Assembly: GCA_029250825.1 (NCBI GenBank)
Contig: JAQXEN010000024.1
Span: 1 to 64,000, forward strand
Length of the DNA: 64,000 bases
Direction: 5' to 3'
Source of the DNA: Porticoccaceae bacterium
GTDB taxonomy: Bacteria; Pseudomonadota; Gammaproteobacteria; Pseudomonadales; Porticoccaceae
Shown one piece after another: positions 7,073 to 32,107 of this stretch. The notes below the pieces were generated by a model. That model was not told where the DNA came from and did no database searches. It worked only from the letters and a program-made list of their open reading frames with translations. The first letter of the stretch is position 1, and each line of letters opens with the position of its first letter. A program made the position numbers and the translations under genes.

Positions 7073-8239
7073 TCAGCGATTGCGACCTAGAGCATCGTGG
7101 CTGGTGACCCAGTCGCCAGCGAGCACTGCACTCATCAGCGACACTTCCCCTGCAAGCACGGTGGCACCGATAATTTCAGCCAGCTTATGGACTTTTCCGG
7201 CACCGTTACAGTCGAGTATATTAAGACATTCTTGTTGAGTTGCCAGACCGGTTCCACCGCCGTAGGTGGCAATAATCAGTGATGGCAGAGTAACCGATAA
7301 ATAGTAGTTTCCAGCCTCATCGATATCCGCATAAATAATCGATGCGGAGGACTCAGCCACATTGGCAGCGTCTTGACCTGAGGCGATAAATACCGCGGCT
7401 ATACCATTGGCAGCATGAGCACCAGTGCTCGATGTACCAGCCATAAAACTGCCCACCTGATTGATCTGCCGCGCCTTAAACAGCACTTCTGCTGTGACCC
7501 CCATAGTCTTTTCCAGCAGCTCTCCGGGAATCAATACTTCTGCAATAACGCGCTTGCCGCGACTGTGCAATGTGTTGATTTGAGAATGCTTTTTATCCGT
7601 ATCCATAGCCCCAGAAAGCATGTAACGCTGAATGCCAGGGTAGGTTTTCATAATCCATTCACAGGCGACAAAAGTTGCCTTGCCAACCATATTTTGGCCC
7701 GCGGCATCACCGGTAGTAAAGTTGAAACGCAGATAGCGCATGCGCGCTGCAGCATACTGTTCAATATTGCGCAGCTTGCCCGATGAGGTTGTAGTCTCAG
7801 CCTGCGCGGCAATCTGATCAAAGTTCTGCTCCACCCAGACACCGAACTCACGGGCTTCTCGGGCATCATTAAAAACAAACACTGGGGCGCGCTGCATAGC
7901 GTCATCGACCACCGAAACTTTGACGCCGCCAGAGTCACGCAGCAATCGTGCGCCTCGGTTATAACTGGCAATCAATGTGCCTTCACTGGTGGCCATAGGA
8001 ACATAGAAATCTCCAGAGGCATGCTCGCCGTTTACCCGCAGTGGTCCAATAAGACCCAGAGGCACTTGGGCAACACCAATAAAGTTTTCGATATTGCCGG
8101 CGGTGGTGGCGGGGTCAACTGAGTAATGGCCGATATGATCTAATTTGGCTGAGGTTTTTTCTGCGGCGAAATCCCGCCGAGTTTTAGCCATCACTTCGCT
8201 GTAATCGTTATCACTGTCTCTGGGAATTCGGTCTGACAT
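7073..8239 (-). CDS. Class I-type HMG-CoA reductase (NADPH-type)
   Basis: The 388-aa protein matches the catalytic part of class I 3-hydroxy-3-methylglutaryl-CoA reductases (HMG-CoA + 2 NADPH to mevalonate + CoA). Visible signatures: IENFIGVAQVPLG (about 50-62), PMATSEGTL with the catalytic Glu86, DKK (Lys216/217) in MDTDKKHSQIN, GQDAA with Asp290, GGGTGLATQQ (328-337), and the C-terminal catalytic His381 in TSHDALGRNR. All four catalytic residues are present, so the enzyme should be active. The opening differs from class II (MvaA) enzymes. No other mevalonate-pathway gene is in the window. It heads a minus-strand run with the amidohydrolase and OYE genes, next to the MarR cluster, so a role on a pathway-derived acyl-CoA is possible. 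The physiological role is uncertain. Confidence 0.85.
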   Translation of the reverse strand: MSDRIPRDSDNDYSEVMAKTRRDFAAEKTSAKLDHIGHYSVDPATTAGNIENFIGVAQVPLGLIGPLRVNGEHASGDFYVPMATSEGTLIASYNRGARLLRDSGGVKVSVVDDAMQRAPVFVFNDAREAREFGVWVEQNFDQIAAQAETTTSSGKLRNIEQYAAARMRYLRFNFTTGDAAGQNMVGKATFVACEWIMKTYPGIQRYMLSGAMDTDKKHSQINTLHSRGKRVIAEVLIPGELLEKTMGVTAEVLFKARQINQVGSFMAGTSSTGAHAANGIAAVFIASGQDAANVAESSASIIYADIDEAGNYYLSVTLPSLIIATYGGGTGLATQQECLNILDCNGAGKVHKLAEIIGATVLAGEVSLMSAVLAGDWVTSHDALGRNR

Positions 8240-8415
8240 ATTATTATTCTCGTTGTTGTCATAGTCTGGGATTGTTAGGCCTGAGTATGCGGCGGCTCGG
8301 CCATTTTAATGCGCGGTGTAGACTACATTATTATTGGCCAATTCAAAACAGCTGCAGGGTTATTGTGCAGCTTTGGCAGCGATGCATTTACCTCCAGCTA
8401 TTGAATTTCCGCGAT

Positions 8416-9933
8416 CTAGTTATTAAGCAATTTTTTGCCCGGATACAGTTGTTCCCTATGAGTCCCACCCTTAACCACCTGCTGACCAGCCACCAGAACA
8501 TGCTGAATACCGCTGGAGGGCTGATAGGGATCGCCATAGTCCGCATTGGCAGCCACTGTGGTGGCATCAAAGATCACAATATCCGCATCCGCGCCAAGCT
8601 GAATGCGCCCCTTGCGCTTAAATAACGGCGCCGCCTGTTCCATCCACTGGGCCTGGTGGAGGCTGATTTTGGCCAGGGCTTCGGTGAGACTAAGAACCTT
8701 TTGCTCGCGCACATAATGCCCCAGCAGCCGCGCAAAGGTGCCGGCTATATTGGGGTTGGTGGCAATGCGGGTATCCACAGCGGGCAGTGCGTCAGTAGAG
8801 ACCATCATCCGCGGCCACTGCAGTGCCGTCTCCACCCATTGTTCTTTAACATAATGGTGATTGACCGCCCCCGCCGGTTGCTCTTTTGAATATTTCTCCC
8901 AGCTCTCTTTGGTCAACCATTCACCGGTGGCAACCCACTGCACATCTTCATAGCTGATATCGAAAATTCCCTGCCAGTCACGACGTCGAAAAACATCGGC
9001 GCCAATACTGGTGCCGCCGGCGGCATAGGATAATGTCTCGGTGGTGATATTGGCGCCGGCGCTATTAGCCTCGTCTATCATTGCCAGCCAATCACCGATG
9101 CGACCCATAGCGTTGTGGCTAATATGACAGACAAATAGTGCTGCCTTGGTGCTCTTGGCCAGTTCGATCACTTCAATAAGACCTGCCGGATCACCGGTGT
9201 AACCACGGCGCACATGAACATAAATCGGCACTTCTCGTGCGGCAGCCACCTCGAATAACATGGCCAGTTCAGCAGCGGAGACCGCCTCGGTCATGTAGTC
9301 CAACAGCACTCCAATACCCAAACCACCCTTATCTAGGCCTTTGTGCAAGAGCAGACGCATCTCTTCTATCTGTTCTGCCGTAGCTTCTTGCATCCACGCT
9401 GGGCTACCCATAACAACGGTTTTCTCACCGGCAAAAATATAGGGTTGATCAATGCCCTCGAGGACTTTGATACGCACCGCAAAATGACCCACGGAGGAAC
9501 CATAGTTAATCGCCGCGCCAGCGCGAAGATGTTCACCGTAAAAACTCACAGGAAAGGATCCAGCTTCGAGATCGAGCTGGGTGGTGACACCATCTAGAAC
9601 ATTAAAGTGCTGACCGAGAACCGTGGGGCTGTGGCTGTGAACATCGATAAAGCCGGGGGCAACGATTAGACCCCTGGCGTCGATTATCACATCACTCTCT
9701 AGAGGTTGCTCAGAGATAGCGACAATACTGCCATCGCGAATACCTATATGTCGGGGCCCATCGAGATCGGTTTCTGGGTCGATTACACGACCATTATTGA
9801 TCACCAGATCGTAGTTTTCCGGCTCACTTAAAAACACTGTATAAATAAGCGAAGCGGTAATAAATGTGGCAACAAATAGTATTTGTAAACCCACTACTAT
9901 TTGACTGATTCCTAAGGCTTTCTTCCCCTGCAT
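8416..9933 (-). CDS. Membrane-anchored amidohydrolase, D-aminoacylase-like
   Basis: This 505-aa protein of the amidohydrolase superfamily is nearest to N-acyl-D-amino-acid deacylases / dihydroorotase-like hydrolases, which cleave amide bonds with a metal centre. An N-terminal hydrophobic helix (about 10-33) suggests anchoring with the enzyme outside the cytoplasmic membrane. The composite beta-domain start (YDLVINNGRVIDPE), the metal-binding HSH (His99/His101 in GFIDVHSHS), HVRRG, CHISH and STDA motifs are present. Where D-aminoacylases carry a metal-bridging Cys (GVTTVVxGxCG) this protein has GVTTQLDLEAGS, so the centre may differ. It lies between HMG-CoA reductase and the OYE gene on the same strand. 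Ring-opened N-heterocycles or N-acyl amino acids are plausible substrates; this is inference. Confidence 0.7.
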   Translation of the reverse strand: MQGKKALGISQIVVGLQILFVATFITASLIYTVFLSEPENYDLVINNGRVIDPETDLDGPRHIGIRDGSIVAISEQPLESDVIIDARGLIVAPGFIDVHSHSPTVLGQHFNVLDGVTTQLDLEAGSFPVSFYGEHLRAGAAINYGSSVGHFAVRIKVLEGIDQPYIFAGEKTVVMGSPAWMQEATAEQIEEMRLLLHKGLDKGGLGIGVLLDYMTEAVSAAELAMLFEVAAAREVPIYVHVRRGYTGDPAGLIEVIELAKSTKAALFVCHISHNAMGRIGDWLAMIDEANSAGANITTETLSYAAGGTSIGADVFRRRDWQGIFDISYEDVQWVATGEWLTKESWEKYSKEQPAGAVNHHYVKEQWVETALQWPRMMVSTDALPAVDTRIATNPNIAGTFARLLGHYVREQKVLSLTEALAKISLHQAQWMEQAAPLFKRKGRIQLGADADIVIFDATTVAANADYGDPYQPSSGIQHVLVAGQQVVKGGTHREQLYPGKKLLNN

Positions 9934-9997: not shown

Positions 9998-11452
9998 TTA
10001 GGCGGCGTTCCAATCAGGGGCGATTAAACGGCGTTTGCCATCATGGCTTTTCACCACTCCCGCCTGATCCAGCTCTTCTCGATCCCAGAGTTCGCAGGTG
10101 ACCTGCTTATGTTTTTGATCTAGCCCTTCACAGTAATTGCTGTAGCGACAGAGACGCACTTCATCGCCGCGGCCTAGGCGCACCTTTTCAAACCAGTCTG
10201 GATCTGCCAAGGCCTGCCGCGCAAAGCCAATAATATCAGCCTTGTCCTGTTGCAGAACCGCCTCGCCCTGCTCGTAGCTGTAGATTCCACCGGCCACAAC
10301 AAAAGGCGTTTGATAACCGCTGGCGCGATTGCGACGGCGCATCTCGGCCACCGGATCTATATTGCGGCCAAAGGGGCCCTGCTTGTCAGAGATATAGCTG
10401 GGCATGCATTCATAGCCACTGCGGCCAGTGTAGGGATAGGCTGCCCAGCCCACTTTTGGCTGCTTGGCATCATCAAACTTGCCACCTCGGGACAGAGACA
10501 GAAAATCCATACCGGCTTCGGCAAAGCGCTGGGCAAAATAACAGGCGTCTTCAAGACCGCTGCCATCGGCAACAATTTCATCGGCGAGAAACCGACAGCC
10601 CACCGCAAACTGCTCCTCGGTTGCATCTTGCACCGCCTGCAAAACCTCCAGAGGCAAACGCGCTCTGGACTGCACATCGCCACCGTAACCATCGCTGCGA
10701 CTGTTGGTCGCAGACAAAAATGAGGCCATAGTGTAGGCATGGGCATAGTGCAGTTCCACACCATCAAAGCCCGCTACCTGTGCCCGGAGTGCCGCATCGG
10801 CAAACAGGCTCGGCAAAGTTTCAGGCAACGCTGCTATATCAGGGATATGGGTGTCGGTGACCCGCTGACGATTGCCAAAGCTGCGGTCTTCCCACTCTTT
10901 GGCGCTGAGCGCCGCTTCTAGCTCCTCAATATCAAGCTCGGCGAGCCGCACACGTATCTGGTCATCGGAGCAATCGGTCATGCCCAGATGTTGTCTGTGT
11001 TGATCGGTAATTTTGAGAAAGCGCTCGAGATATTTAATCGGATCTGGGCGCCTGCGGATGGGTAAGAAATCAATCAGCTGAATCAATAATCGAGTTTGAC
11101 CCTGACTGGCCTCGCGCACGCAGTCAACCAGTTTGCGCAACCCTTCTATATATCGATCATCGCCTATTCGAAGCAGCGGCCCACTGGGTACATCCCTTAT
11201 GCCCGTGGCTTCAACTACCAATACGCCAGGTTTACCTTGGGCAAAACGGCGATACCACTGCAGCACATCTTCGGTGACTTCCCCCTCTTCGTTAGAGCGC
11301 CATGGAACCATGGCCGGAATCCAAGTTCGCTGCTCTAGTGACAGGGGGCCAATATGGATTGGTGAAAATAATTTAGACTGAGAAATCTCGGAGTGGGTGG
11401 GCCAATCAGTTGCAATTACATCGTACTTAATTCGTTCTGAAGGCTTCCACAT
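9998..11452 (-). CDS. NADH:flavin oxidoreductase, Old Yellow Enzyme family (single-domain)
   Basis: The 484-aa FMN TIM-barrel protein has an N-terminal barrel start (KLFSPIHIGPLSLEQR), the substrate-binding strand VELHYAHAYTMASFLSA followed by SDGYGG, and a phosphate-binding FVVAGGIYS / IIGFARQALADPDW end. It resembles the barrel of 2,4-dienoyl-CoA reductase / trimethylamine dehydrogenase but lacks the C-terminal FAD/NAD domains. The C-terminal cysteines (CRYSNYC then C 13 residues on) do not match the standard [4Fe-4S] spacing of those enzymes, and the usual His-Gly-Ala-His is changed to His-Tyr-Ala-His. It probably reduces a C=C bond of a catabolic intermediate. It is upstream of, and on the same strand as, the amidohydrolase and HMG-CoA reductase genes, directly after marR (25-bp gap). 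Confidence 0.75.
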   Translation of the reverse strand: MWKPSERIKYDVIATDWPTHSEISQSKLFSPIHIGPLSLEQRTWIPAMVPWRSNEEGEVTEDVLQWYRRFAQGKPGVLVVEATGIRDVPSGPLLRIGDDRYIEGLRKLVDCVREASQGQTRLLIQLIDFLPIRRRPDPIKYLERFLKITDQHRQHLGMTDCSDDQIRVRLAELDIEELEAALSAKEWEDRSFGNRQRVTDTHIPDIAALPETLPSLFADAALRAQVAGFDGVELHYAHAYTMASFLSATNSRSDGYGGDVQSRARLPLEVLQAVQDATEEQFAVGCRFLADEIVADGSGLEDACYFAQRFAEAGMDFLSLSRGGKFDDAKQPKVGWAAYPYTGRSGYECMPSYISDKQGPFGRNIDPVAEMRRRNRASGYQTPFVVAGGIYSYEQGEAVLQQDKADIIGFARQALADPDWFEKVRLGRGDEVRLCRYSNYCEGLDQKHKQVTCELWDREELDQAGVVKSHDGKRRLIAPDWNAA

Positions 11453-11476: not shown

Positions 11477-11971
11477 CTATTGATCGCTCTCACTTTCTGC
11501 GGCAAGAGTGGTTCGTTTAAGTTCGCCGAGCAGGCTGGTTAGCTGTTCAATATTGTCATTGCCCAGTGGACCTATGGTTTCTATAACCCACTCTTCATGT
11601 CTGGCAGCCATCTTATTAAAGGATCTCAGTCCCTTGGGTGTCAGCTTTACTACAAAGGTTCGGCGATCGGTCTTTAATGATTCTCGACTAATTAATCCAT
11701 CTTTAACCAGCTGCGTGGCAATACCTGAGACATTGCCACCTGACACCATCATGCGCTTGGACAATGTACCCATCATCAAACCTTCCGGCTTGCGCTGCAG
11801 CTGCGCCATAAAATCAAAACGCGGCAAGGTGGTATTAAATTCCTGACGCAGAGACTCACGAATTTTGTTTTCCACCAAACTTGAGCAGGTCAATAACCTG
11901 AGCCACAACTTTAGGGAATGATGGTCGTCCTCGACTAATCGCGCTTCGTGATCAATTTGTTCTGCACTCAT
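11477..11971 (-). CDS. MarR-family transcriptional regulator of the catabolic cluster
   Basis: This 164-aa winged-helix dimeric regulator has the MarR core LPRFDFMAQLQRKPEGLMMG, then LSKRMMVSGGNVSGIATQL (recognition helix), DGLISRESLKTDRRTFVVKLT (wing) and a C-terminal dimerisation helix. The Met at 11971 was chosen because AAGGA lies 8-9 bases upstream; an extension to 12031 lacks a site and is not family-like. MarR proteins usually repress divergent catabolic genes and release on binding a pathway aromatic or aryl-CoA. A perfect palindrome lies 101 bp upstream, between this gene and the divergent monooxygenase. Three related palindromes occur in other promoter regions of the island, making this protein the obvious candidate for all four sites. 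Confidence 0.9.
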   Translation of the reverse strand: MSAEQIDHEARLVEDDHHSLKLWLRLLTCSSLVENKIRESLRQEFNTTLPRFDFMAQLQRKPEGLMMGTLSKRMMVSGGNVSGIATQLVKDGLISRESLKTDRRTFVVKLTPKGLRSFNKMAARHEEWVIETIGPLGNDNIEQLTSLLGELKRTTLAAESESDQ

Positions 11972-12071
11972 CTTTTCAATCCTTATTTCAAGCTGGAAAA
12001 CTGTCTTTTCGAGATACCGGAAGTATACCAAAAGTACGCTTGATTAAGGTGCTAATGCGATTCTAAAAATA

Positions 12072-12250: not shown

Positions 12251-14593
12251 ATGAAGATAGTATGTTTAGGTGGAGGCCCTGCTGGGCTGTACTTGGCAAT
12301 CTCAATGAAGCTCAAGGATCCGTCCCATCAGATCGATCTCTATGAGCGCAACAAGCCTGACGATACCTTTGGCTGGGGTGTAGTGTTTTCAGATCAAACC
12401 GTGGAGAACCTTACACTGAATGATCCGGTCAGTGCCGAGACCCTAACCAGTGAGTTTATTCACTGGGATATGATCGACTGTGTGGTCAATGGTGAGATTG
12501 AACGCTCAGATGGCCACGGCTTTATCGGCCTCGGGCGCAAGCGTATGTTACAAATCCTCCATGCCAGAGCAACGGATCTTGGGGTCAACCTCCATTTCCA
12601 GAGTGAGTTCTCGGTAGACGATATAGATACGCGCTTTGCGGATGCGGATTTGGTGGTCGCCGCCGATGGCCTCAACTCAAAAATCCGCAATTCCGATCTC
12701 GAAGCGTTTGAGTGCACCGTTGATGTGCGCAGCAATCACTTTGTCTGGTTGGGCACTAAGCAACGCTTTCGCGATGCCTTTACCTTTATTTTTGAAAAGA
12801 CTCAGCACGGTTGGATCTGGGCTCACGCCTATCAGTTTGATGAAGACACTTCGACCTTTATTGTCGAGTGTAATCCCGATGTCTATGAGGCCTTTGGCTT
12901 CCATAAGATGACCCATGCCGAGAGCGCCGAGACCTGCCGTAAGATCTTTGAAAAATCCTTAGGCGGTCACGAGCTATTAACCAACTCTGCGCACATTCGC
13001 GGATCCGCTTGGATTAACTTCCCCCAGGTACTGTGCCGCAACTGGATTAAAAATGATCGCCTGGTACTGATTGGCGATGCCGCGCATACCGCTCACTACT
13101 CCATTGGTTCCGGTACCAAGCTCGGCCTAGAAGACGCCATATCCCTGGCCAAGCACCTGAGCAGCGAACTGCCGGTGCGCGATGCACTTCAGGCCTATCA
13201 GGACGAGCGTGAGTTGGAAGCGCTAAAACTTCAGAACGCCGCGCTTAACGCGATGATCTGGTTTGAGAACACGCCACGTTATTTAGAGGCCTTTGACCTC
13301 AAGCAGTTTAACTATTCAATGCTCACGCGAAGCCAGCGTGTCAGTCATGAAAATCTGCGCCTACGGGATGAAAGTTGGCTTCAGGGCATGGAAAAACATC
13401 TGGCTAAAATCTCTCTCGGTGAGAATTTTGATGAAGCGGTTCCACCGATGTTTTTGCCCTATAAACTGGGTAACTTAGAACTGGAAAACCGCGTCGTGGT
13501 CTCCCCCATGTCAATGTACAGCGCCACCGATGGTCTACCCGATGACTGGCATCTGGTGCACTATGGCAATATGGCTAAAGGCGGCGCTGGTCTGATCTTT
13601 ACCGAGATGACCGATATCTCCGCTGATGCCCGAATTACGCCGGGATGCACAGGCCTGTGGAACGATGAACAGGAAGCCAGTTGGAAACGCATTGTCGATT
13701 TCGTTCATGGTCACACCCAATCTAAAATCGCCATGCAGTTGGGTCACGCTGGCCCCAAGGGTTCAACTAAAGCGCCCTGGGATTGGCATCCGGACCGCTT
13801 GGATGATCCACTGGATGATGCCAATGGCTGGCCTCTACTGTCTGCCAGTGAGCAGCCCTTTGACAGTTATAGCCCAGTACCCAAGGCCATGACCCGCGCC
13901 GATATGAATGAGATCAAACAGCAGTTTGTCGACTCCACCCACAGAGCGGCTCGCGCCGGTTTTGATCTGCTGGAACTGCACGGCGCCCACGGCTATTTGC
14001 TGGCCGCCTTTATTACGCCAATTCTCAATAAGCGTGAAGATGAATACGGTGGCTCTCTGGAAAATCGCCTGCGCTATCCAGTAGAAGTCTTCCGCGCCAT
14101 GCGCGCTGCCTGGCCCGCCGAGCGCCCTATGTCCGTGCGTATTTCCGCACACGACTGGATGGGTGATCTGGGTATCAGTGAAGCCGACTGCGTTGAATTG
14201 GCTAAAGCCTTTTCCGATGCCGGCGCTGATATTATCGATGTTTCCAGTGGCCAGACCTCTCATCAGGCGAAACCGCGTCCGGGGCGTATGTTTCAGACAC
14301 CGCTCTCGGATCAGATTAGAAATGAAGCCGGTATTGCCACTATGGCCGTGGGCAACATCTTCGAGCTCGATCATGTGAATAGTATTATTGCCGCGGGACG
14401 GGCAGACCTAGTTTGTCTGGGTCGCGCTCATCTGGCCGATCCCAACTGGACATTGCGCGCCGCGGCTGAAAGCGGCCATACTGGTGTCGGCGTCCACGAA
14501 CAAAAACAATATTATATGGGCTTCCGCCAATTGCACACCAATCTGCGTCGCGCCGCCGAACAGGCCGCCGCTGACTTGCGCGCGCTAAAATAG
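12251..14593 (+). CDS. FAD monooxygenase-OYE fusion, salicylyl-CoA 5-hydroxylase / 2-aminobenzoyl-CoA monooxygenase-reductase type
   Basis: This 780-aa two-domain flavoprotein starts with a class A FAD monooxygenase domain: GGGPAGLY at 7-14, [11 protein letters not shown] near 40 and the [25 protein letters not shown] motif in the first 400 residues. From about residue 395 a complete OYE-type FMN barrel follows ([59 protein letters not shown]). This architecture is known from 2-aminobenzoyl-CoA monooxygenase/reductase of Azoarcus evansii, which hydroxylates and then dearomatises an aryl-CoA ring, and from salicylyl-CoA 5-hydroxylases. The sequence alone does not say which CoA ester is used; the neighbouring isatin-hydrolase-like gene favours 2-aminobenzoyl-CoA. 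It heads a plus-strand operon with SDR, hydratase, ACAD and two MaoC genes, under predicted operator A. Confidence 0.85.
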
Positions 14594-16281: not shown

Positions 16282-16343
16282 ACGCTAAAGCTGACGAAAA
16301 CGCGCTTTATTAATGCGTTAAAAAATATTTGAGAGGACAAGCT

Positions 16344-17525: not shown

Positions 17526-17718
17526 TCCCATCCGCTGATTTGATTAGCTGTACTCCGACAATCATTCTCCCCCGCTCTGCCAGAAAATGCCGCCCCTGGG
17601 TTATAAGGTTACAGGACTAAGGGCGGCAAAGCTCATAACCCCTGATCAGCCCGCGCCCTTGACCATAGGGTTATTGACATCATATAGTCCGCGCCACGAA
17701 ATAGCGCTGAGAGACAGT

Positions 17719-18689: not shown

Positions 18690-18727
18690 AAAAATAGCCA
18701 CTTACTAAGAAGCGGCTAACATTTTTT
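18686..18727. terminator. Bidirectional terminator between MaoC operon and GMC gene
   Basis: The hairpin TAGCCACTT (18694-18702) / AAGCGGCTA (18709-18717) has one mismatch and is flanked by an A-run on the left and a T-run (18721-18726) on the right, so it can act on both strands. It overlaps the last codons of the minus-strand GMC gene. Confidence 0.7.
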
Positions 18728-23475: not shown

Positions 23476-24582
23476 CTAACCAACCGGCAAGCGCAGCCCC
23501 TTGCGTTCTAAACGTGGAATCACCTCATCGCGAAAATAGGGAAATTCCTTGGCGTAATCGACAAAGGACAATGTCAATCCAGCCAGTCCTGTATGACTTA
23601 ATTTTTCTAATTCATCGGCAATATGATCAGGTGTGCCGACCAGCGGATAGCCGCCGTGACCCGCCGCAAAACGGTCTCTAAAACTGGCCAGAGCTTCAGG
23701 CGTGAATGACTGAGCATGCATGCCCTGAAGTTGCATCAGATAATCTACCGCTTCCCAATCGGCGTTCTGATTGGCGTAATAATCGAGATAGTCTTCAGCT
23801 TCTTTCTGAGTCGGACGACAGACCACGGAACAGAAACTAAATACCCCCACATCGCGCCCTACAGCCGCTGATTTCGACTTGATATCTGCCACTACTTCCG
23901 CGGCCTGTTCGAGAGTAAAGACTGGGGTAAATAAGAAATCGGCATTGCGCATGGCAAAGTTACGACCCTCTTCCGAGGCCGCGGCATTGAGAATTGGAAT
24001 ATGTTTCTGTGCTGGCCGCGGGTTGCTGTAGACCCCGGTGCCCTGAAAGAATTCACCGTTCCAGTCAAAGGCCTGCTCCTCGGTCCAGAGCTTCTGCACA
24101 TAATCAAACCATTCCTGAGCATAGGCGTAGCGCTGAGCATGCTCGGCGGATAGCTCAACGCCAAAGGCGTCATATTCTGGCTTATTCCAGCCAGCCACCA
24201 CATTGAGTCCGACTCGGCCATTGCCAAGGTGATCAATAGTAGCTAGCTGTTTAGCTGAGACGATGGGGTGGTTGAATGCGGTGTGGACGGTAGCAAAGAC
24301 TTGAATGTTTTGTGTGTGGGCTAAAAGGCCGGCAGCCCAGGCGACGGTTTCGAGTACACCACCGTGAAAGTCTGTATCGCCGCCGTAGCCAATCCAGCGG
24401 GCAATTGGCAACATAAACTCAAGACCAGCGGCATCGCACTGACGAACCAGGTCGAGATTGTTTTCCCAGGTATTTTCCCAGCGCTCTTCAACTTTAGTGA
24501 CCGCCATACCACCAGAGCAGTTTGCGGAAAAAATCCCCAGCTTAAGTTTATTGTCATTGTACATCGGGTTCTTAGCCGACAT
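23476..24582 (-). CDS. LLM-class flavin-dependent monooxygenase, RutA-like
   Basis: This 368-aa TIM-barrel flavin monooxygenase of the bacterial luciferase superfamily resembles the pyrimidine oxygenase RutA group: GIFSANCSGG at the start, FMLPIARWIGYGGDTDFHGG near 60, QVFATVHTAFNHPIVSAKQ, DHLGNGRVGLNVVAGWNKPEYDAFG (split by order in the barrel), and GTPDHIADELEKL near the end. RutA oxidatively opens the uracil amide ring using FMNH2 and O2. The start at 24582 was chosen because GGGGGAAG lies 4-5 bases upstream. A flavin reductase must come from elsewhere. Predicted operator B lies 109 bp upstream. With the nearby RidA (compare RutC) and cyclase genes, an oxidative attack on an N-heterocycle is plausible. 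Confidence 0.83.
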   Translation of the reverse strand: MSAKNPMYNDNKLKLGIFSANCSGGMAVTKVEERWENTWENNLDLVRQCDAAGLEFMLPIARWIGYGGDTDFHGGVLETVAWAAGLLAHTQNIQVFATVHTAFNHPIVSAKQLATIDHLGNGRVGLNVVAGWNKPEYDAFGVELSAEHAQRYAYAQEWFDYVQKLWTEEQAFDWNGEFFQGTGVYSNPRPAQKHIPILNAAASEEGRNFAMRNADFLFTPVFTLEQAAEVVADIKSKSAAVGRDVGVFSFCSVVCRPTQKEAEDYLDYYANQNADWEAVDYLMQLQGMHAQSFTPEALASFRDRFAAGHGGYPLVGTPDHIADELEKLSHTGLAGLTLSFVDYAKEFPYFRDEVIPRLERKGLRLPVG

Positions 24583-24690
24583 AGTCTTCCCCCACTGTAA
24601 AAAACCAATACAGCAATCACCATAGTTTTTTTGAATGGTGCTGCTGGTGCTTATAATTCTATGTGGCTCAAACAATCTTTACTTTATATT

Positions 24691-24840: not shown

Positions 24841-25287
24841 ATGATGAAGTATTTTGAGAGTTTTAAGCTCGGCAAGATATATCAACTTAGGGAATATAGA
24901 GTCTCCGAGGCAGAGATACTTGAGTTTGCCAACAAATACGATCCCCAGAGTTACCACACAGACCCACTTGCCGCCGCAGAGTCACCCTTTGGTTCATTGA
25001 TTGCCAGTGGCTGGCATACCGCGGCTATTTTTATGCGCATGCAGTGCGATAGTTTTCTCAATCAATCACATTGTCTGGGATCCCCCGGCATTGACCAGCT
25101 GCGCTGGATCGCGCCGGTGCATCCCGGCGACAGCTTGCACGGGGAAAACAAAATTACTCAACTGCGTCAGTCCAAGTCGAAACCAGACCGTGGAATTGTT
25201 CAATCGGCGGTGTCAATTTACAATCAGAAAAGTGAACGGGTAATGTCACTTGAGACTACCGCTTTTTTTCTCAAGCAACCGACTTAG
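24841..25287 (+). CDS. MaoC-like hydratase, third copy
   Basis: This 148-aa hot-dog-fold MaoC-like protein has FESFKLGKIYQLREYRVSE, ILEFANKYDPQSYHTDP with an intact Asp-Pro-Gln-x-x-His hydratase motif, and GSLIASGWHTAAIFMRM. It therefore keeps the catalytic residues that the second copy lacks. AAAGGA lies 7-8 bases before the first ATG; an ATG one codon later is equally possible. It is transcribed alone, divergent from the LLM gene, with predicted operator B in between, and converges on ridA. It probably hydrates an enoyl-CoA of the same pathway. Confidence 0.82.
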   Translation: MMKYFESFKLGKIYQLREYRVSEAEILEFANKYDPQSYHTDPLAAAESPFGSLIASGWHTAAIFMRMQCDSFLNQSHCLGSPGIDQLRWIAPVHPGDSLHGENKITQLRQSKSKPDRGIVQSAVSIYNQKSERVMSLETTAFFLKQPT

Positions 25288-25301: not shown

Positions 25302-25694
25302 TCAAAGTACTGCAGTAACTTCTATTTCCACCTGGGCCCGATCTTCAATTAATGCTGCCACCTGAACCACAGACATAACCGGGAAGTTTTTTCCCATAAT
25401 CTCTCTATATGCCTGACCAATAGGCCGTAAATTGCCGGCATAAGATTGTTTGTCGGTGATATACCAGGTCATGCGTACCATATGCTCCGGCCCTGCCCCA
25501 CCAGCGCTTAATACGTCGTGGACATTCTGCAAAGTCTGGCGCACCTGCTCAACAAAATCATCGCTTTCAAAATCAGCCTGCTTGTTCCAACCAATTTGAC
25601 CACCGATATAAATAGTTTTGCCACCTTCGGTAAGAATACCGTTGGAATAGCCTTTTGGTGCAACCCAGCCCTCTGGCAATAGTGTCTTGCGCAT
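25302..25694 (-). CDS. RidA/YjgF family enamine/imine deaminase
   Basis: This 130-aa trimeric RidA-family protein has the YSNGILTEGGKTIYIGGQIGWN start, a VRMTWYITDKQSY strand carrying the conserved Arg, and FPVMSVVQVAALIEDRAQVEIEVTAV at the end. Members hydrolyse reactive enamine/imine intermediates to keto compounds, or assist in ring-opening pathways as RutC does. Its start is 37 bp from predicted operator C, shared with the divergent isatin-hydrolase-like gene, so it belongs to the regulon. In this setting it could deaminate an amino-enoyl intermediate left after ring dearomatisation; this is inference. Confidence 0.87.
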   Translation of the reverse strand: MRKTLLPEGWVAPKGYSNGILTEGGKTIYIGGQIGWNKQADFESDDFVEQVRQTLQNVHDVLSAGGAGPEHMVRMTWYITDKQSYAGNLRPIGQAYREIMGKNFPVMSVVQVAALIEDRAQVEIEVTAVL

Positions 25695-25748: not shown

Positions 25749-25819
25749 AAAACATAGCCAGTTATCATTTTATAATGCACAATAGAATGATAAAAAAACA
25801 GCATAAAGTGGAGATAATC

Positions 25820-26611
25820 ATGAGTAGCAACCCATTACTTGACCTTGTCAGTGGCATTTCAAATGGCAATATTAAAATTATCGATTTGACCGCCACCCTC
25901 GCACCCGGCATACCTACACTGCAATTACCCGAAGAGATGGGATGGGGTAAATCATGGCCTTTCCATATAGAAGAAATTTCTCGCTACGATGATCGCGGTC
26001 CCGCCTGGTACTGGAATAACTTTAAGTGTGGCGAGCACACTGGCACTCACTTTGATGCGCCTATTCACTGGGTCACAGGTAAAGATCATAGCCATCACGC
26101 CACAGACACCGTTGCAGTTGAAACCTTTGTTGCACCGGCCTGTGTGATTGATGCCTCTGCCGAATCTGCTGCCAACCCCGACTTTTTGATGAGTGTTGAT
26201 TTTATTAAACAGTGGGAAGCGGTGCACGGTGATATTGAAGCCGGCTCATGGGTTTTGTTTCACAGCAACTGGTCAAAGAAAGTCGCCACTGATGAATATC
26301 TCAATGTTGACGATGCCGGCAGCCACACGCCGGGCTGGGAACCAGAAGCGATCACCTACCTCACCGATGTTAGAGATGTGGTTGGTGTCGGCGTTGAAAC
26401 CGTGGGTACAGACAGTGGCCAGGCCGCTGCTCAAGAGCCGATGTTTCCCTGTCACAACCTAATGCATGGTGCCAATAAGTGCGGCCTTGCGGGTTTACAG
26501 AACCTTGACCAACTGCCACCCAAAGGTGCGGTAATTATTGCTCCACCGCTGAAAATTAAGGATGGTTCTGGCAGCCCAGCACGAGTTCTTGCACTTATCA
26601 CACAGGATTAG
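25820..26611 (+). CDS. Cyclase-family metal-dependent hydrolase, isatin hydrolase-like
   Basis: This 263-aa member of the cyclase/kynurenine-formamidase fold has the metal-binding motif HTGTHFDAPIH (His73, His77, Asp79, His83). From memory, the overall pattern closely follows the isatin hydrolase of Labrenzia: HFDAPIHWVTGKDHS, ANPDFLMSVDFIKQWEA, GTDSGQAAAQEP, FPCHNLMHGANKCGLAGL and KGAVIIAPPLKI. Isatin hydrolase opens the lactam of isatin to isatinate in the breakdown of indole-3-acetate and isatin. The ATG at 25820 was chosen because GGAG lies 6 bases upstream; the frame from 25775 is Lys/His-rich and overlaps the promoter. It is 7 bp from the downstream oxidoreductase genes in the same operon, behind operator C. 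Another cyclic-amide substrate cannot be excluded. Confidence 0.8.
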   Translation: MSSNPLLDLVSGISNGNIKIIDLTATLAPGIPTLQLPEEMGWGKSWPFHIEEISRYDDRGPAWYWNNFKCGEHTGTHFDAPIHWVTGKDHSHHATDTVAVETFVAPACVIDASAESAANPDFLMSVDFIKQWEAVHGDIEAGSWVLFHSNWSKKVATDEYLNVDDAGSHTPGWEPEAITYLTDVRDVVGVGVETVGTDSGQAAAQEPMFPCHNLMHGANKCGLAGLQNLDQLPPKGAVIIAPPLKIKDGSGSPARVLALITQD

Positions 26612-26618: not shown

Positions 26619-28805
26619 ATGGCTGAAAGATCATTTAAGAAAGAGGTTTTAAAACTTCGCGCAGGTGAGGGAGATCTTTTTCAAGGCGAGGGCATCCTGG
26701 CGATTACCAAAGCTCTGCTGCAGTCAGGTGTGTCTTACGTTGGTGGTTATCAGGGTTCACCCATTTCTCATTTGATGGATGTGCTAAACGACGCCCAAGA
26801 TGTATTGGGCGAGCTGGGTGTGCATTTTGAAGCCAGTGGCAGTGAGGCCACCGCTGCTGCAATGCTCAGCGCATCGATTAACTATCCATTGCGCGGCGCA
26901 GTCACTTGGAAGTCTACGGTGGGCACTAATGTCGCCTCCGATGCCCTGTCCAATCTCGCCTCTTCCGGTGTGGTTGGTGGCGCTATGGTAATTGTCGGCG
27001 AAGACTATGGGGAGGGCTCGAGCATTATGCAGGAGCGCACCTATGCCTTTGCCATGAAAGCACAGATGTGGCTGATGGATCCGCGCCCCAATTTGCCCAG
27101 CATTGTGGATATGATCGAGAAGGGCTTTCAGCTCTCCGAAGCCAGTAACACACCAATTTTTTATATGATGCGGATTCGCGGCTGCCATGTCACCGGCGAG
27201 TTTGTCGCCAAAGACAATCTGGCACCCCAGTTCAGCAATCTCAATCCAGTAACACCCAATCGCGAAGCGGAAAAGATTATTTTGCCGCCCCATGTCTATC
27301 AGCAAGAGCGGGATAAGATCAGTCAACGCTGGCCTGCGGCTATCGACTTTATTCAGCAACATAAGCTCAACGAGTTTTTCCCCGGCAAGCAGGAAGAGTT
27401 GGGCATTATTACCTGTGGCGGCACCTATAACACCATTATTCGCGCCCTCGAGAGACAGGGGCTGGCCGACTGTTTTGGCAATAGCGACATTCCCCTCTAT
27501 GTGATGAATGTGGCCTATCCCATAGTGCCGGATGAGGTGGCTGAATTCTGTCTCGGCAAAAAACATATTTTGCTTATTGAAGAGGGACAGCCTGCCTATA
27601 TAGAGCCGGCGATTCAGAGCCTGCTGCGCAAAAAGGATATTCAAACCCAGGTCTATGGCAAAGACATCTTGCCACAAACTGGCGATGTTACTGGCCAGGT
27701 GTTGCTCACTGGACTGACGCGTTTTATGGAGATCGCCGGACGCTCCAGCACGACTAAAATAAGCAGTCTTGAAGTTGATCAACTGCAGTCACCACTGCAG
27801 GAAGATGATCGCGAAAGCCTTTTGCAAAACGTGCCGCCGAGACCTTCAGGACTCTGCACCGGCTGCCCCGAACGGCCTTTATTCAGTGCGATTAAACAGG
27901 TGCAGGCTGAAATTGGCCCGTTTCATATCAGTTCAGATATCGGCTGCCACTCCTTTGCCACACTGGCGCCCTTTAATCTCGGCAACACGATTATGGGATA
28001 CGGCCTTTCACTGGCCAGTTCATCGAGTATTCGCCATGTGCTGCCCCACAAGTCGATCAGTATTATGGGTGATGGCGGCTTCTGGCATAACGGCCTCAGC
28101 AGCGGTGTCGCCTCTGCGGTATTCAACAATCACGATGGTCTGTTAATTATTATCAACAACGGTTATTCCGCAGCTACCGGGGGCCAAGATATTCCCTCGA
28201 TGGTTGAGCCAAATAATCTGATTGCCACTACCATGGATGCGGAGCGTCTCGAGCGCGACCAGTCACAGTCTATTGAGCGCGCCTGTCGCGGTGCCGGTGT
28301 CGAGTGGCTGCGAACAATTAGCACCTATAGCATCAGTGAGATGAAAGAGACGCTCACCGAAGCCCTGACAACTAAACAGGGCGGTTTAAAGGTGATTATT
28401 GCCGAGGGCGAGTGCATGCTCAATCGCCAGCGCCGGATCAAGCCGCTGATGAAAAAGTCGATTGAGGATGGCAAACGCACACTGCGGGCGCGGTTCTATA
28501 TTGATAGCAAGACCTGCACCGGCGATCATGCCTGTATCCGCATCTCTGGCTGCCCCTCCCTGACGATTAAAGACAATCCCGATCCACTGCGGACAGATCC
28601 GGTCTCTTATGTGGACAATAGCTGTGTCGGCTGCGGCGTCTGTGGTGACAATGTGCACTCTGCAGTGCTCTGCCCGTCTTTCTCTAAGATTGATCTGCTG
28701 TCTAACCCCAACGCGATTGATAGCACTATGTCGCGTATCCGGCGGGCTGTTATAGGCTGGTTTGAGCGCCGTGATCAGCGCCGTGAAATTAGGCAAGCAC
28801 TATGA
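26619..28805 (+). CDS. Indolepyruvate:ferredoxin oxidoreductase alpha-type subunit (TPP and Fe-S)
   Basis: The 728-aa protein has the IorA architecture: an N-terminal 2-oxoacid oxidoreductase domain (QGSPISHLMDVLNDA, then GSEATAAAMLSASINYP), a TPP-binding domain with MGDGGFWHNGLSSGVASAVF followed by the Asn-Asn-Gly of IIINNGYSAATGGQ, and a C-terminal ferredoxin region (about 625-695) with CTGDHACIRISGCP and CVGCGVCGDN...CPSF. IorAB-type enzymes oxidatively decarboxylate aryl pyruvates to aryl-acetyl-CoA, with ferredoxin as acceptor. It starts 7 bp after the cyclase and overlaps the next gene by 4 bases. The first Fe-S motif has wider spacing (C-x5-C-x5-CP) than classical ferredoxins. The substrate is presumed aromatic. 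Confidence 0.85.
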   Translation: MAERSFKKEVLKLRAGEGDLFQGEGILAITKALLQSGVSYVGGYQGSPISHLMDVLNDAQDVLGELGVHFEASGSEATAAAMLSASINYPLRGAVTWKSTVGTNVASDALSNLASSGVVGGAMVIVGEDYGEGSSIMQERTYAFAMKAQMWLMDPRPNLPSIVDMIEKGFQLSEASNTPIFYMMRIRGCHVTGEFVAKDNLAPQFSNLNPVTPNREAEKIILPPHVYQQERDKISQRWPAAIDFIQQHKLNEFFPGKQEELGIITCGGTYNTIIRALERQGLADCFGNSDIPLYVMNVAYPIVPDEVAEFCLGKKHILLIEEGQPAYIEPAIQSLLRKKDIQTQVYGKDILPQTGDVTGQVLLTGLTRFMEIAGRSSTTKISSLEVDQLQSPLQEDDRESLLQNVPPRPSGLCTGCPERPLFSAIKQVQAEIGPFHISSDIGCHSFATLAPFNLGNTIMGYGLSLASSSSIRHVLPHKSISIMGDGGFWHNGLSSGVASAVFNNHDGLLIIINNGYSAATGGQDIPSMVEPNNLIATTMDAERLERDQSQSIERACRGAGVEWLRTISTYSISEMKETLTEALTTKQGGLKVIIAEGECMLNRQRRIKPLMKKSIEDGKRTLRARFYIDSKTCTGDHACIRISGCPSLTIKDNPDPLRTDPVSYVDNSCVGCGVCGDNVHSAVLCPSFSKIDLLSNPNAIDSTMSRIRRAVIGWFERRDQRREIRQAL

Positions 28806-30331
28806 CTGCAGGTTCTGAATTACGCAGCACTAATATTATCGTTACCGCTCTCGGTGGTGAAGGTGGCGGCGTGTTGGCCAACTGGCTGATAGAAGTGGCC
28901 AATGCCAATGACTGGACGGTTCAGAGCACCTCCCTTGCGGGCGTTGCCCAGCGCACCGGCGCGACAATTTATTATTTGGAGATTTTCCCCAGAGCTGACA
29001 TAAAAGACAGTCCGCCGATTATGTCACTGTCTCCCACTCAGGGTGATATTGATATCGCTATCAGCTCCGAAATCGCCGAAGCGGGCCGTATGCTCCAGCG
29101 CGGTTTTGTCACCCCCGATCGCACCACGGTTATCAGCTCTAGTCACCGGGTCTATGCCATCGATGAGAAGACTGAGATTGCCGATGGCACTATGCAAGCT
29201 GAGACAATATTGGATATCGCCAATCGCTACTCCAAGCATTTTGTGCACTACGACATGCAGGATATTGCCCAACGCAATAATTCAGTGATTAGTTCAGTTC
29301 TGTTTGGCGCACTGGCCGGTTCCGGCGCTCTGCCCTTTGGCAGAGAGAGCTATGAGGAAGTTATTCGACAGACAGGTAAGGCCGTGGCGACCAATCTCGC
29401 CGCCTTTGACGACAGTTATGAGATTGCTCAAAACACAACTAATCCCGTTGCCCACTACCAACCAGTGACGGGTGACGCTGAGTCACAGACTAGAGGTTTT
29501 AGCTTACCTGAAGCAACTACAATTCAGGGTCAAAAGTTACTCGCCCGATTGGCCGCTGATTTTCCCTCAGCAACTCATGAGATTGTCTACGAGGGCGTGA
29601 GAAAAGCGTTGGAATATCAGGACTTTGACTATGCAGCCTATTACTTGGATCAAGTCGCGAGCATTGTTGCAGTGGACACCGTAGACGAGAAGTTTGAATT
29701 GAGTAATACCACTGCTCGATACCTGGCCCTGTGGATGTGTTTCGAAGATATTCCCCGGGTTGCGCAGTTAAAGATCCGCCATCAGCGGATGCAGGAAATT
29801 CGTCAGGAAGTAAAAGCGCAAGATCAGCAGATTATCTATGTCACGGAATATTTTCGCCCGCGACCTGAAGAGATCTGTGCGATTTTACCGGCGCCATTGG
29901 GCAGAGCTATTATTGGCAGCAGTCTTGGACGCCGGGCTTTAGGTCTTGTATCCGGGGCCAAAAAACTGAAAACCAATACTCTGGCGATCTATTTTGCTCT
30001 GCGCTTCTTGGCCATGCTGAGACGCTTTAGACGCTCTAGCCTCGGCTATCAGCATGAGCACAGCATGATCAATAACTGGCTCGCTGCAATACGCTTGTCC
30101 GCCAGTTCAGATAGGACTTTGGCTGTAGAAATTGCGGAGTGTGGCAGAATCGTTAAGGGTTATGGCAGCACTCGGGAGCGTACAAGCGAACAAAATATTG
30201 CCATTGTCAGTGCCTATAACGACCACCCACAGCTGCTTGCAGAGGATATTAAAACACTTCGCAACGCGGCTCTTGCGGATGATTCAAATACCGCTTTTAA
30301 CCAAAAGATCAGCGCCCTGACGACTGCCTGA
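28802..30331 (+). CDS. Indolepyruvate oxidoreductase beta-type subunit with long C-terminal extension
   Basis: The 509-aa protein begins with the pyruvate/ketoisovalerate oxidoreductase gamma-type domain (VTALGGEGGGVLANWLIEVA, then SLAGVAQRTGATIYYLEIFP, residues about 10-200), the partner of the TPP subunit upstream. The remaining 300 residues or so form a helical extension (HEIVYEGVRKALEYQDFDYA, VRVW-free, rich in Arg) of the DUF6537 type found fused in indolepyruvate:ferredoxin oxidoreductase families. Its function is not known to me. The ATGA overlap with the upstream gene indicates tight coupling and equal amounts. A strong terminator follows 27 bp after the stop. Confidence 0.82.
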   Translation: MTAGSELRSTNIIVTALGGEGGGVLANWLIEVANANDWTVQSTSLAGVAQRTGATIYYLEIFPRADIKDSPPIMSLSPTQGDIDIAISSEIAEAGRMLQRGFVTPDRTTVISSSHRVYAIDEKTEIADGTMQAETILDIANRYSKHFVHYDMQDIAQRNNSVISSVLFGALAGSGALPFGRESYEEVIRQTGKAVATNLAAFDDSYEIAQNTTNPVAHYQPVTGDAESQTRGFSLPEATTIQGQKLLARLAADFPSATHEIVYEGVRKALEYQDFDYAAYYLDQVASIVAVDTVDEKFELSNTTARYLALWMCFEDIPRVAQLKIRHQRMQEIRQEVKAQDQQIIYVTEYFRPRPEEICAILPAPLGRAIIGSSLGRRALGLVSGAKKLKTNTLAIYFALRFLAMLRRFRRSSLGYQHEHSMINNWLAAIRLSASSDRTLAVEIAECGRIVKGYGSTRERTSEQNIAIVSAYNDHPQLLAEDIKTLRNAALADDSNTAFNQKISALTTA

Positions 30332-30389: not shown

Positions 30390-30419
30390 GATGGAATCCA
30401 AATACTCTCTCTAGCGCAT

Positions 30420-31604
30420 TTAAAACGCTGCAAGACCGGTCTGGCCGCGACCCAGAATCAAGCCGTGAATATCATGGGTTCCCTCATAGGTATTGACGGT
30501 TTCAAGATTCACCATATGCCGCATTACCGGGTACTCATCCGAGATACCATTGCCACCGAGCATATCCCGCGCCTTGCGCGCGATCTCTAGCGACTTGCCA
30601 CAGGAATTACGCTTAATTAACGAGATCAGTTCCGGGGCTATATTATTTTCATCCATCAACTGTCCAGCGCGGAAACAGCCCTGCAAGGCAAGGCTAATAT
30701 CTGTTTGCATATCCGCCAGCTTTAGCTGGATCAGCTGGGTCGCCGCCAACGGTCGATTGAATTGTTTGCGCTCCATAGTGTAGGTTCTGGCTGCATGCCA
30801 GCAGGCTTCAGCAGCACCCAGTGATCCCCAAGCAATACCGTATCGGGCATTGTTGAGGCAGCTAAAGGGACCTTTTAAACCCTTCACATTGGGCAGCAAC
30901 TGCTCTTCGGCAACAAACACGTCTTCCATTACTATCTGGCCGGTGGTCGATGCGCGCAACGACAGCTTGCCTTCAATTTTCGGTGCACTGAGTCCGGGCA
31001 TGCCCTTCTCAAGAATAAATCCGCGAATTTCACCGTCGTCGGTTTTCGCCCAAACCACAAAGACATCGGCAAAGGGGCTGTTGGAAATCCACATCTTGGC
31101 GCCATTCATCATATAGCCGCCATCGACACTGCGGGCGCGAGTGACCATGCCACCGGGATCGGAACCATGATCTGGTTCGGTTAGACCAAAGCAGCCGATA
31201 AACTCGCCAGTTGCCAGCTTGGGCAGATACTTTTCACGCTGAGCTTCATTGCCAAAGGCGTATATCGGATACATCACCAGTGACGACTGCACACTCATCA
31301 TGGAGCGGTATCCAGAATCAACACGCTCCACCTCTCTAGCGACTAAGCCATAGCTAATGTAATCCATACCCGCGCAGCCGTAACCTTGAATGGTGAGCCC
31401 TAAAAGGCCCATCTCGCCCATCTCACGGAATATACTCGGATCACTGGTTTCATTTTGAAAGGCATCGCGAACCTTGGGCTGTAAACGCTCTTGCGCATAC
31501 TGGCGAGTAGAGTCGCGAACCATTCTCTGCTCATCGGATAATTGTTGTTCAAGAAGAAATGGATCTTCCCAAATCAGGCGCTGCCAAGATTTATTGTTGC
31601 CCAT
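30420..31604 (-). CDS. gcdH: Glutaryl-CoA dehydrogenase
   Basis: The 394-aa acyl-CoA dehydrogenase of the glutaryl-CoA dehydrogenase type converts glutaryl-CoA to crotonyl-CoA and CO2, with ETF as acceptor. Diagnostic segments: [15 protein letters not shown] with the Arg that binds the glutaryl carboxylate, [26 protein letters not shown], and [15 protein letters not shown] with the catalytic Glu. It has GGAG about 10 bases before the ATG. A perfect 30-bp palindrome containing the regulon's operator sequence lies 48 bp upstream. The gene is therefore probably induced with the cluster, and glutaryl-CoA is a likely late intermediate of the pathway. It also serves lysine breakdown in many bacteria. 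Confidence 0.93.
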
Positions 31605-32107
31605 TGAAACTGCTCCAAAAGAGTTTTTTGCTGGTAGGCGTACAGAATAGCAAAAACTATTTTAAATTTAAAATAGTTTTTGCTAAAACTCAGGCTAATT
31701 AGGCTATGTCGTAGATTAATCCAGCTATGCCGGTCCCTGATTATTGTTACGTTTACTAGAAAGTCAGAGATTTGTAGCTTGCCGTCTTTTTCCACGAGCT
31801 GAATATCTTCGGCGTGAATTGAGGTAGTGTCTGCTCCGGTATCAATGCGAGATTCAATCCACAGGCCCGCCGGCTGGATCTTTGCCCACTCCACTGCACC
31901 AACAATAGGCAGGTGTAACTTCCCCGCTCGGGTGGCTTGCGGTGGTGGTTCGGGAGTAACGACTCGGGTGACAATACGCTCAATCACCTCAGGTTCTGGG
32001 CAGCTCTGAGGTTCAAGGGCTGGTACAACCTCCGCTGGCACCGGACATTCGGTGGGTTCAGTCAACTGAGGAAGCAGCGCGCAGCTAGATAGCAAGTAGC
32101 TGGCCAT
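31574..32107 (-). pseudogene. Truncated lipoprotein with retropepsin-like (Zn_protease PF05618-type) domain
   Basis: The frame starts with a lipoprotein-type signal ending in LLSSC, has a Pro/Glu-rich linker, and then the beginning of an ATP-dependent-zinc-protease-type (retropepsin-like) domain: LPIVGAVEWAKIQPAG, IESRIDTGADTTSIHA with the Asp-Thr-Gly motif, and a short ENFV-like strand. The domain normally runs on for about 80-90 residues, but here family resemblance stops after DGKLQISDF. The remaining 60 residues or so are unlike the family and read through the gcdH operator and the gcdH start. The 3' end seems to have been replaced by the gcdH unit. The frame itself is open, so a short lipoprotein could still be made. 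It may start a little upstream. Confidence 0.65.
31652..31681. promoter_or_regulatory. Predicted MarR operator D: perfect 30-bp palindrome upstream of gcdH
   Basis: The halves AAAAACTATTTTAAA (31652-31666) and TTTAAAATAGTTTTT (31667-31681) are exact complements. The core at 31658-31675, TATTTTAA-AT-TTAAAATA, is identical in half-sites to operators A and C. It lies 48 bp before the gcdH start and inside the 3' part of the degraded retropepsin-like frame. Confidence 0.75.

Follow-up and report, generated by a model that had tools for sequence, protein, structure and literature searches.

A probable accessory catabolic island for an indole-derived compound in a Porticoccaceae genome, encoding isatin hydrolase, an IorAB-like pair and a monooxygenase/reductase fusion

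Gene content of the island

The stretch of DNA analysed here (the window) comprises 64,000 nucleotides from a marine-type bacterium of the Porticoccaceae (GenBank assembly GCA_029250825.1, contig JAQXEN010000024.1, positions 1 to 64,000) and carries what is probably an accessory gene island by which an indole-derived compound is degraded via isatin. The island consists of two blocks. The first comprises a MarR-family regulator gene and the run fusion, SDR, crotonase, acyl-CoA dehydrogenase (ACAD), MaoC and MaoC; the second comprises a group of TonB-dependent receptor, GMC oxidoreductase and luciferase-like FMN monooxygenase (LLM) genes, a Rid-family gene, the run isatin hydrolase, IorA and IorB, and a glutaryl-CoA dehydrogenase gene. 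Reading frames and domain searches recovered, each in its place, all the genes named in a preliminary description of this DNA and established the island as real. The window's own genome (G000; genomes are labelled G and loci L, each with a number) is 2.33 Mb in size and 91% complete.

The cyclase-family protein of the second block scored 277 to 336 bits against four isatin hydrolase sequences (best 5nmp, 336 bits), which, with its invariant catalytic residues, bears out its earlier description as isatin-hydrolase-like. Kynurenine formamidase was ruled out as its identity (26 bits to 4cog). Residues H88, H92, D94, H98, W80, W99, D213 and H227 are invariant in 45 of 45 aligned hydrolase rows (window included), and W78 is a tryptophan in 42 of the 45. 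Roles described for the Labrenzia enzyme are Mn ligands His, His and Asp, a catalytic His and Asp, and a pocket Trp (PMC6117287; this and the other papers cited by PMC number are drawn on for the parts of their text that were available). These metal ligands, catalytic residues and pocket Trp of the Labrenzia aggregata and Ralstonia solanacearum isatin hydrolases are common to the window copy, the residue match to the Labrenzia hydrolase being made by eye from the alignment (numbering offset 19, then 20). The window copy differs from these enzymes in being co-encoded with IorAB and in reading GLAG at the GLQC/GLAS motif, which is taken as a mark of isatin hydrolases (PMC6117287); the last position of the motif is S in 23, C in 16, G in 5 and X in 1 of the 45 rows. 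Judged from these residues and scores, the window cyclase very likely hydrolyses isatin. Cyclase-like genes with 46–50% identity also lie between ACAD and MaoC genes in three Halieaceae-type loci (L034, at 5225; L035, at 15346; L049, at 4611), a placement other than that of the window's copy beside IorA.

The fusion protein joins an FAD monooxygenase domain (FAD_binding_3) to an old-yellow-enzyme (OYE) domain (Oxidored_FMN) and scored 1176 bits on NF006101, above the cut-off of 1078; the NCBI name of this model is salicylyl-CoA 5-hydroxylase/oxidoreductase. Eight Rhodobacteraceae loci (L038–L045) encode a fusion 57–58% identical to that of the window, in 8/8 beside a tryptophan 2,3-dioxygenase (TDO) and a ligase, and kynureninase was detected in seven of the eight (TDO and kynureninase were named by eye from L042 translations). 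The best model for the ligase of these clusters is the benzoate-CoA ligase family, at 360 bits and thus below the cut-off of 375. Fusion, crotonase and ACAD are 57–70% identical between the window and the Rhodobacteraceae clusters (L038, L042). Among 82 fusion stretches from a wider sample of 397 Pseudomonadota genomes, own included, TDO was found in 14 and kynureninase in 10. Since fusion copies stand beside TDO, ligase and kynureninase, anthraniloyl-CoA is the likely substrate of the fusion group. For the window protein the substrate is, with high probability, 2-aminobenzoyl-CoA, and the model score and the company of its relatives uphold the enzyme type first assigned to it. The same fusion family operates in the hybrid aerobic 2-aminobenzoyl-CoA pathway for anthranilate of Azoarcus evansii and Arthrobacter Rue61a; that route uses an anthranilate-CoA ligase, whereas none was found in the window, where isatin hydrolase and IorAB are encoded instead.

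The hydrolase and alpha-subunit genes are separated by 7 bp and the alpha and beta genes overlap by 4 bp, and the three apparently form one operon. The alpha subunit contains GDG...NN at 484 and Cys clusters at 633 and 669, which we take to be the TPP motif and the C-terminal Fe-S sites, respectively. The pair had been described as an indolepyruvate:ferredoxin oxidoreductase; the beta subunit exceeds the NF006179 cut-off, but the alpha subunit scored only 262.6 bits on TIGR03336, far below the IorA cut-off of 650.9. Isatinate is an aryl-2-oxoacid, and thus of the substrate class of the 2-oxoacid oxidoreductase superfamily. Within this class, phenylglyoxylate oxidoreductase converts an aryl-2-oxoacid and CoA to aroyl-CoA and CO2, like the step proposed below for the Ior pair; its subunit make-up is different, and the proposed Ior substrate is amino-substituted. 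In six loci (L058, L059, L067, L068, L089, L092) the Ior pair and the hydrolase occur together with no fusion in the stretch. Because the pair is kept with the hydrolase where the fusion was not found, its role is placed at the isatinate step, before dearomatisation. We consider it reasonably probable that the IorAB-like pair oxidatively decarboxylates isatinate straight to 2-aminobenzoyl-CoA. No statement of this reaction for an Ior-type enzyme was found in the available parts of the open-licence literature; it may be in print, subscription papers lying largely outside that literature.

Distribution of hydrolase, Ior pair, fusion and ligase

Across the 397 genomes, searched with E-value limits of 1e-60 for IorA, 1e-150 for the fusion, 1e-40 for the hydrolase and 1e-90 for the ligase, Ior was found in 32, the hydrolase in 28, the fusion in 80 and the ligase in 81. 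Hydrolase, Ior pair and fusion co-occur far beyond chance. Ior and hydrolase share 26 genomes (26/28 hydrolase genomes; Fisher p 8e-33), hydrolase and fusion share 27 (27/28 hydrolase genomes; p 7e-20), and the fusion is present in 29/32 Ior genomes against 51/365 without Ior (p 2e-19), while ligase and fusion share 74 (p 2e-64); none of these p values is corrected for relatedness. Only six fusion genomes had no ligase at the limit used, and Ior was found in five of them, compared with 24/74 of those with the ligase (p 0.02). In the sixth (G253), a 37% identical ligase relative adjoins the fusion gene (L093). Coexistence of ligase and Ior is common; the notable feature is the presence of Ior where a fusion genome is without the ligase.

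A tree of IorA was built from 51 rows of fetched loci, partly chosen for Ior or hydrolase matches. In its inner clade, a cyclase (at least 42% identity) lies within 15 kb in 40 of 45 rows. As for the remaining rows, the cyclase is 15.3 kb away in L064, 21 kb away in L061 and on another contig in the genome of L078; L048 is cut by a contig end, and no cyclase was found in the genome of L098. The outer clade has six rows (L099, L101–L104 and L057), with cyclase or fusion not found in the stretch seen and the hydrolase not found in any of the five outer-clade G genomes; this clade probably has another 2-oxoacid substrate. A quick tree was also made of the fusion, with all 82 copies from the 397-genome sample. 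On it, Ior linkage within 15 kb takes eight changes, with eight independent pairs on supported branches, and the linkage of fusion and Ior has therefore arisen or been lost repeatedly and is not one inherited event.

The preliminary description had found neither an aryl-CoA ligase nor an anthranilate dioxygenase in the window, and this was confirmed: the AMP-binding motif pattern matched no window frame of at least 300 aa, and the Rieske alpha family PF00848 gave 0 matches in the whole of G000. It had also proposed that isatinate is converted to anthranilate and then, by a ligase encoded elsewhere, to 2-aminobenzoyl-CoA. This order found no support: G000 has no orthologue of the Rhodobacteraceae benzoate-CoA-like ligase, its eight matches being only 27–31% identical, and the hydrolase and Ior genes lie together. 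In 56 relatives, G000 among them, a full-length fusion (at least 46% identity) is present in G000, G001, G023, G037 and G042, and exactly the same five genomes have an IorA orthologue (at least 58% identity), the G001 copy being cut by a contig end. The best-scoring ligase matches in these five carriers are at most 36% identical. Given that no ligase orthologue was found and that hydrolase and Ior genes share an apparent operon, the direct conversion of isatinate to 2-aminobenzoyl-CoA is preferred. The island probably needs no ligase, judging from gene content, and a diverged ligase may be encoded elsewhere in G000. The IorA orthologue of G037 (L074, G037:C2:460162-462306) has one in-frame TGA, from sequencing error or decay.

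The genus was sampled with 35 genomes (G000 included; completeness as low as 71%), of which G000, G001 and G023 alone have a full-length fusion, and the island is for this reason regarded as accessory DNA. Its G+C content of 0.509 is not distinct from that of the flanks (0.477 and 0.505).

Proposed route and rival explanations

In the route that we propose, isatin hydrolase would open isatin to isatinate (2-aminophenylglyoxylate), and the IorAB-like pair would convert isatinate and CoA to 2-aminobenzoyl-CoA and CO2 by oxidative decarboxylation. As the direct product of IorAB would be 2-aminobenzoyl-CoA, both free anthranilate and an ATP-using ligase would be unneeded. After dearomatisation by the fusion enzyme, the Rid protein would release ammonia by hydrolysis; ring opening and entry into central metabolism would fall to SDR, crotonase, ACAD, MaoC and glutaryl-CoA dehydrogenase.

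Several of these later genes travel with the fusion: of the 82 fusion stretches, 67 have a crotonase copy more than 55% identical and 59 an ACAD copy more than 45% identical. The SDR is a candidate for reduction of the 5-oxo group after dearomatisation, and the PRK08258 crotonase for a hydratase or ring-opening hydrolase. A full beta-oxidation set had been described; SDR, crotonase, ACAD and three MaoC proteins are indeed encoded, but no thiolase model was among the matches listed for the 20 island proteins searched. Glutaryl-CoA dehydrogenase, a candidate exit to crotonyl-CoA, is true to its name by sequence, with 634 bits to 3gnc and 560 to 1sir among solved enzymes, although on NF045552, the one NCBIfam model of this enzyme matched, it scored 217 bits, below the cut-off of 470. 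Copies 66–76% identical to it adjoin the fusion in L045, L053 and L091.

The protein first called RidA belongs to the Rid family (PF01042), but alignment with 1oni shows the Arg of canonical RidA replaced by Met, as in 28/29 aligned rows (window included); the aligned position is presumably that of the canonical catalytic Arg. A reading as ordinary RidA was rejected since this Arg is absent. The Met form is found in 51/82 fusion stretches, with 4 undetermined and 27 without a match above 50 bits. Removal of ammonia from the dearomatised enamine by this Met-form group is a tentative, rather doubtful proposal.

Related genes are known from auxin degradation. IadA and IadB, in the Variovorax iad locus, are IorA/IorB-family names (PMC9613470), and the likeness of the island to that locus through them is one of family names, not of sequences compared with the window pair. 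Of the two loci known for aerobic auxin degradation in bacteria, one is recognised by these genes as its exclusive markers (PMC9613470). In the iad loci of Variovorax, Bradyrhizobium and Achromobacter, IadI is annotated as kynurenine formamidase, and the intermediates reported include isatin and isatinic acid (PMC9613470, PMC12633357). The preprint PMC12633357 contests the previous route via 2-hydroxy- or 2-oxindole-acetate and, in the part available, assigns no step to IadA or IadB. In it, overexpression of iadC-K2 led to a strong build-up of C8H7NO3, which PMC8383072 gives as the formula of isatinic acid; iadC-K2 is by name without iadA and iadB, and this accumulation fits a missing consumer of isatinate. 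Mutants of iadA and iadB in Pseudomonas LY1 (PMC8383072) were dropped as evidence on IorAB, the iad genes of that strain being iac-like in order and content. Unlike the iad locus, the window island continues into a dearomatising CoA pathway.

A number of observations weigh against the direct route. The ligase orthologue is also kept in 24/29 genomes with Ior and fusion. Within 15 kb of the 82 fusion copies, both ligase and Ior were found in 5 cases, the ligase only in 56, Ior only in 11 and neither in 10; this avoidance (Fisher p 5e-5 without the tree) loses its significance when independent pairs are compared (median p 0.625), and mutual exclusion of ligase and Ior beside the fusion was dropped. 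In Alloyangia (L055) a ligase of 70% identity is encoded 19 kb from the fusion, and in G325 (L091) hydrolase and fusion are 121 bp apart, the ligase is present and Ior was not found in the genome, perhaps a sign that the pathway there runs by way of free anthranilate. In a Variovorax locus deletion, iadC-K2 restores anthranilic acid and is called the complete pathway in the available text of PMC12633357, and IadAB are therefore not needed for anthranilate in Variovorax. One Variovorax IorA, encoded outside any iad locus (L057), belongs to the outer clade, and the IorA tree does not include the IadA of Variovorax CL14. The iad locus has the Rieske oxygenase IadDE and an IadF-type acyl-CoA ligase; neither was found in G000, which is without a match to the Rieske alpha family and whose best-scoring match to IadF is 27% identical. 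Finally, as the Rid protein is without the canonical Arg, its assignment as an ordinary imine deaminase is weakened.

The formation of anthranilic acid with iadC-K2 alone (PMC12633357) also bears on a rival route, in which isatinate is converted to free anthranilate by another activity or non-enzymatically, a ligase encoded elsewhere makes 2-aminobenzoyl-CoA and the Ior pair acts otherwise. A ligase orthologue is present in 74/80 fusion genomes (Ior being found in 24 of the 74), which favours this route, as do the eight matches to AMP-forming ligases in G000. However, these matches are far less similar to the Rhodobacteraceae ligase than fusion, crotonase and ACAD are to their counterparts in the same clusters, the genome is 91% complete, and matches are no better than 36% in the four further island carriers. 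We consider this route unlikely. Still less likely is a function of the pair as a genuine indolepyruvate (or phenylpyruvate) oxidoreductase, feeding indoleacetyl-CoA from tryptophan transamination into the pathway. The family name, the beta-subunit score and paa-like reading frames beside the L014 cluster, recognised by eye from translations, speak for this function; against it, the alpha subunit is far under the IorA cut-off and the IorA clade is tied to isatin hydrolase in 26/28 hydrolase genomes, a tie that holds in the iad-type Rieske loci L059, L064 and L080. A Variovorax homologue of the iad-type Rieske enzyme attacks free indole-3-acetic acid (IAA; PMC12633357). Action of the pair after dearomatisation, on a ring-opened 2-oxoacid, would agree with the presence of the fusion in 29/32 Ior genomes, but is very improbable given that Ior stays by the hydrolase in the six loci named above where no fusion was found nearby.

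The direct route can be extended to a general proposal: IadA/IadB-type enzymes would be 2-aminobenzoyl-CoA-forming isatinate:acceptor oxidoreductases, a ligase-free link of auxin and indole breakdown to dearomatisation, with Met-form Rid proteins deaminating the enamine. We hold this to be evenly balanced between true and false. If true, it would assign a step to IadA and IadB, replace an ATP-costing anthranilate ligase by oxidative decarboxylation, correct the common annotation "indolepyruvate oxidoreductase" and suggest that Halieaceae-type bacteria degrade indole compounds. The Met-form Rid, the PRK08258 crotonase and the SDR are candidates for what follows dearomatisation, where the steps are poorly defined.

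Source of isatin, neighbouring genes and feature list

An indole or IAA source had been suggested for the substrate. This fits homologous clusters with Rieske, IadF-like and IadG-like genes or styrene/indole monooxygenase, but not G000 itself, where the Rieske alpha and IadF orthologues were not found. Rieske homologues occur in L010, L075 and L064, and in L010 and G037 (L075, same contig as L011) Rieske alpha and beta genes and an IadG-like thiolase adjoin the fusion. One plasmid stretch of Azospirillum thermophilum carries Rid, ACAD, ECH, SDR, fusion, AMP-binding, Rieske, IorAB and MarR genes, with the cyclase 15 kb off; Caballeronia SBC1 has the run IorAB, thioesterase and fusion, and Alloyangia pacifica has a styrene/indole monooxygenase together with fusion, Rid, hydrolase and IorAB. 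IadF-like ligases (39–49%) adjoin Rid and hydrolase in L014, L015, L020, L033 and L036, those of L014, L015, L033 and L036 being 46–49% identical to the Azospirillum copy. The ligase beside Rid in these four loci was dropped as an anthranilate ligase: that of L033 shares 46% identity with the IadF-like protein of Azospirillum and 27% with the benzoate-CoA-like ligase, PRK06155 (below cut-off) being its best NCBIfam model, and those of L014, L015 and L036 were compared by tblastn only.

It is a speculation that the GMC enzyme (a candidate alcohol dehydrogenase) and the LLM monooxygenase are candidates for upstream, isatin-making steps. The LLM protein was loosely described as RutA-like; SfnG (189 bits) scores above RutA (TIGR03612, 165 bits against a cut-off of 498), and neither reaches its cut-off. 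Among the 56 relatives, LLM at E 1e-30 is confined to the five island carriers, at least 83% identical in G000, G001, G023 and G037 and 39% and 30% identical in G042. The GMC gene is also found in the clusters of L012, L013, L019, G023 (L073) and G037 (L074), and the TonB receptor, whose identification stands (PF00593/PF07715), recurs at 68–95% identity in the corresponding clusters of L012, L013, L019, G023 and G037. FAD-dependent oxidoreductase genes lie beside the cyclase in L055, L056, L081, L085, L088, L090, L092 and L097 and were not noticed in the window; L056 has two, annotated CrtI/CrtN-like. These are possible upstream enzymes.

The island span first described contains the catabolic genes, but its left part, 7073–9933, is not clearly part of the pathway; the two genes there are kept beside the island in G023 and L009. 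Of the loci scanned for the fusion, the second OYE-type gene occurs in 21/37 outside the Rhodobacteraceae, where many contigs are short, and a MarR match in 41/45, again with several short contigs. All features are listed in Table 1.

Table 1. Genes of the island and its left neighbours, with positions in the window
Feature	Position	Strand	Evidence or remark
HMG-CoA reductase	7073-8239		PF00368, 413 bits; no clear pathway role
D-aminoacylase-like amidohydrolase	8416-9933		No clear pathway role
Second old-yellow-enzyme-type oxidoreductase, beside MarR/fusion	9998-11452	-	PF00724
MarR-family regulator, divergent from fusion gene	11477-12031	-	PF12802/PF01047
2-Aminobenzoyl-CoA monooxygenase/reductase-type fusion	12251-14593	+	NF006101; FAD_binding_3 + Oxidored_FMN
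SDR dehydrogenase	14645-15415	+	Adjoins fusion in most scan loci
Crotonase-family protein (PRK08258)	15469-16281	+	NF006107, 468 bits (cut-off 330)
Acyl-CoA dehydrogenase (ACAD)	16329-17525	+	PF00441 etc.
MaoC-like hydratase 1	17587-18183	+	PF01575
MaoC/FAS1-like hydratase 2	18180-18689	+	PF13452
GMC oxidoreductase	18705-20300	-	PF05199/PF00732
Gluconate-2-dehydrogenase subunit-3-like partner of GMC enzyme	20270-20875	-	PF13618
TonB-dependent receptor, candidate substrate importer	20969-23386	-	PF00593/PF07715
Luciferase-like FMN monooxygenase (LLM)	23476-24675	-	PF00296
MaoC-like hydratase 3	24841-25287	+	PF01575
Rid-family protein, Met at canonical RidA Arg position	25302-25694	-	PF01042
Isatin hydrolase (cyclase family)	25775-26611	+	PF04199; matches solved isatin hydrolases
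IorA/IadA-like TPP, Fe-S alpha subunit	26619-28805	+	TIGR03336, 263 bits (below cut-off 651)
IorB/IadB-like beta subunit, POR domain + DUF6537	28802-30331	+	NF006179, 584 bits (cut-off 348); PF01558, PF20169
Glutaryl-CoA dehydrogenase	30420-31604	-	634 bits to 3gnc

Outside the island, a tRNA-Leu (CAA) gene lies at 37621–37707, near reading frames at 35181–37657 that we take to be queA/tgt-like. A TPR-sulfotransferase protein is encoded next to a second TonB-dependent receptor at 53392–57879.

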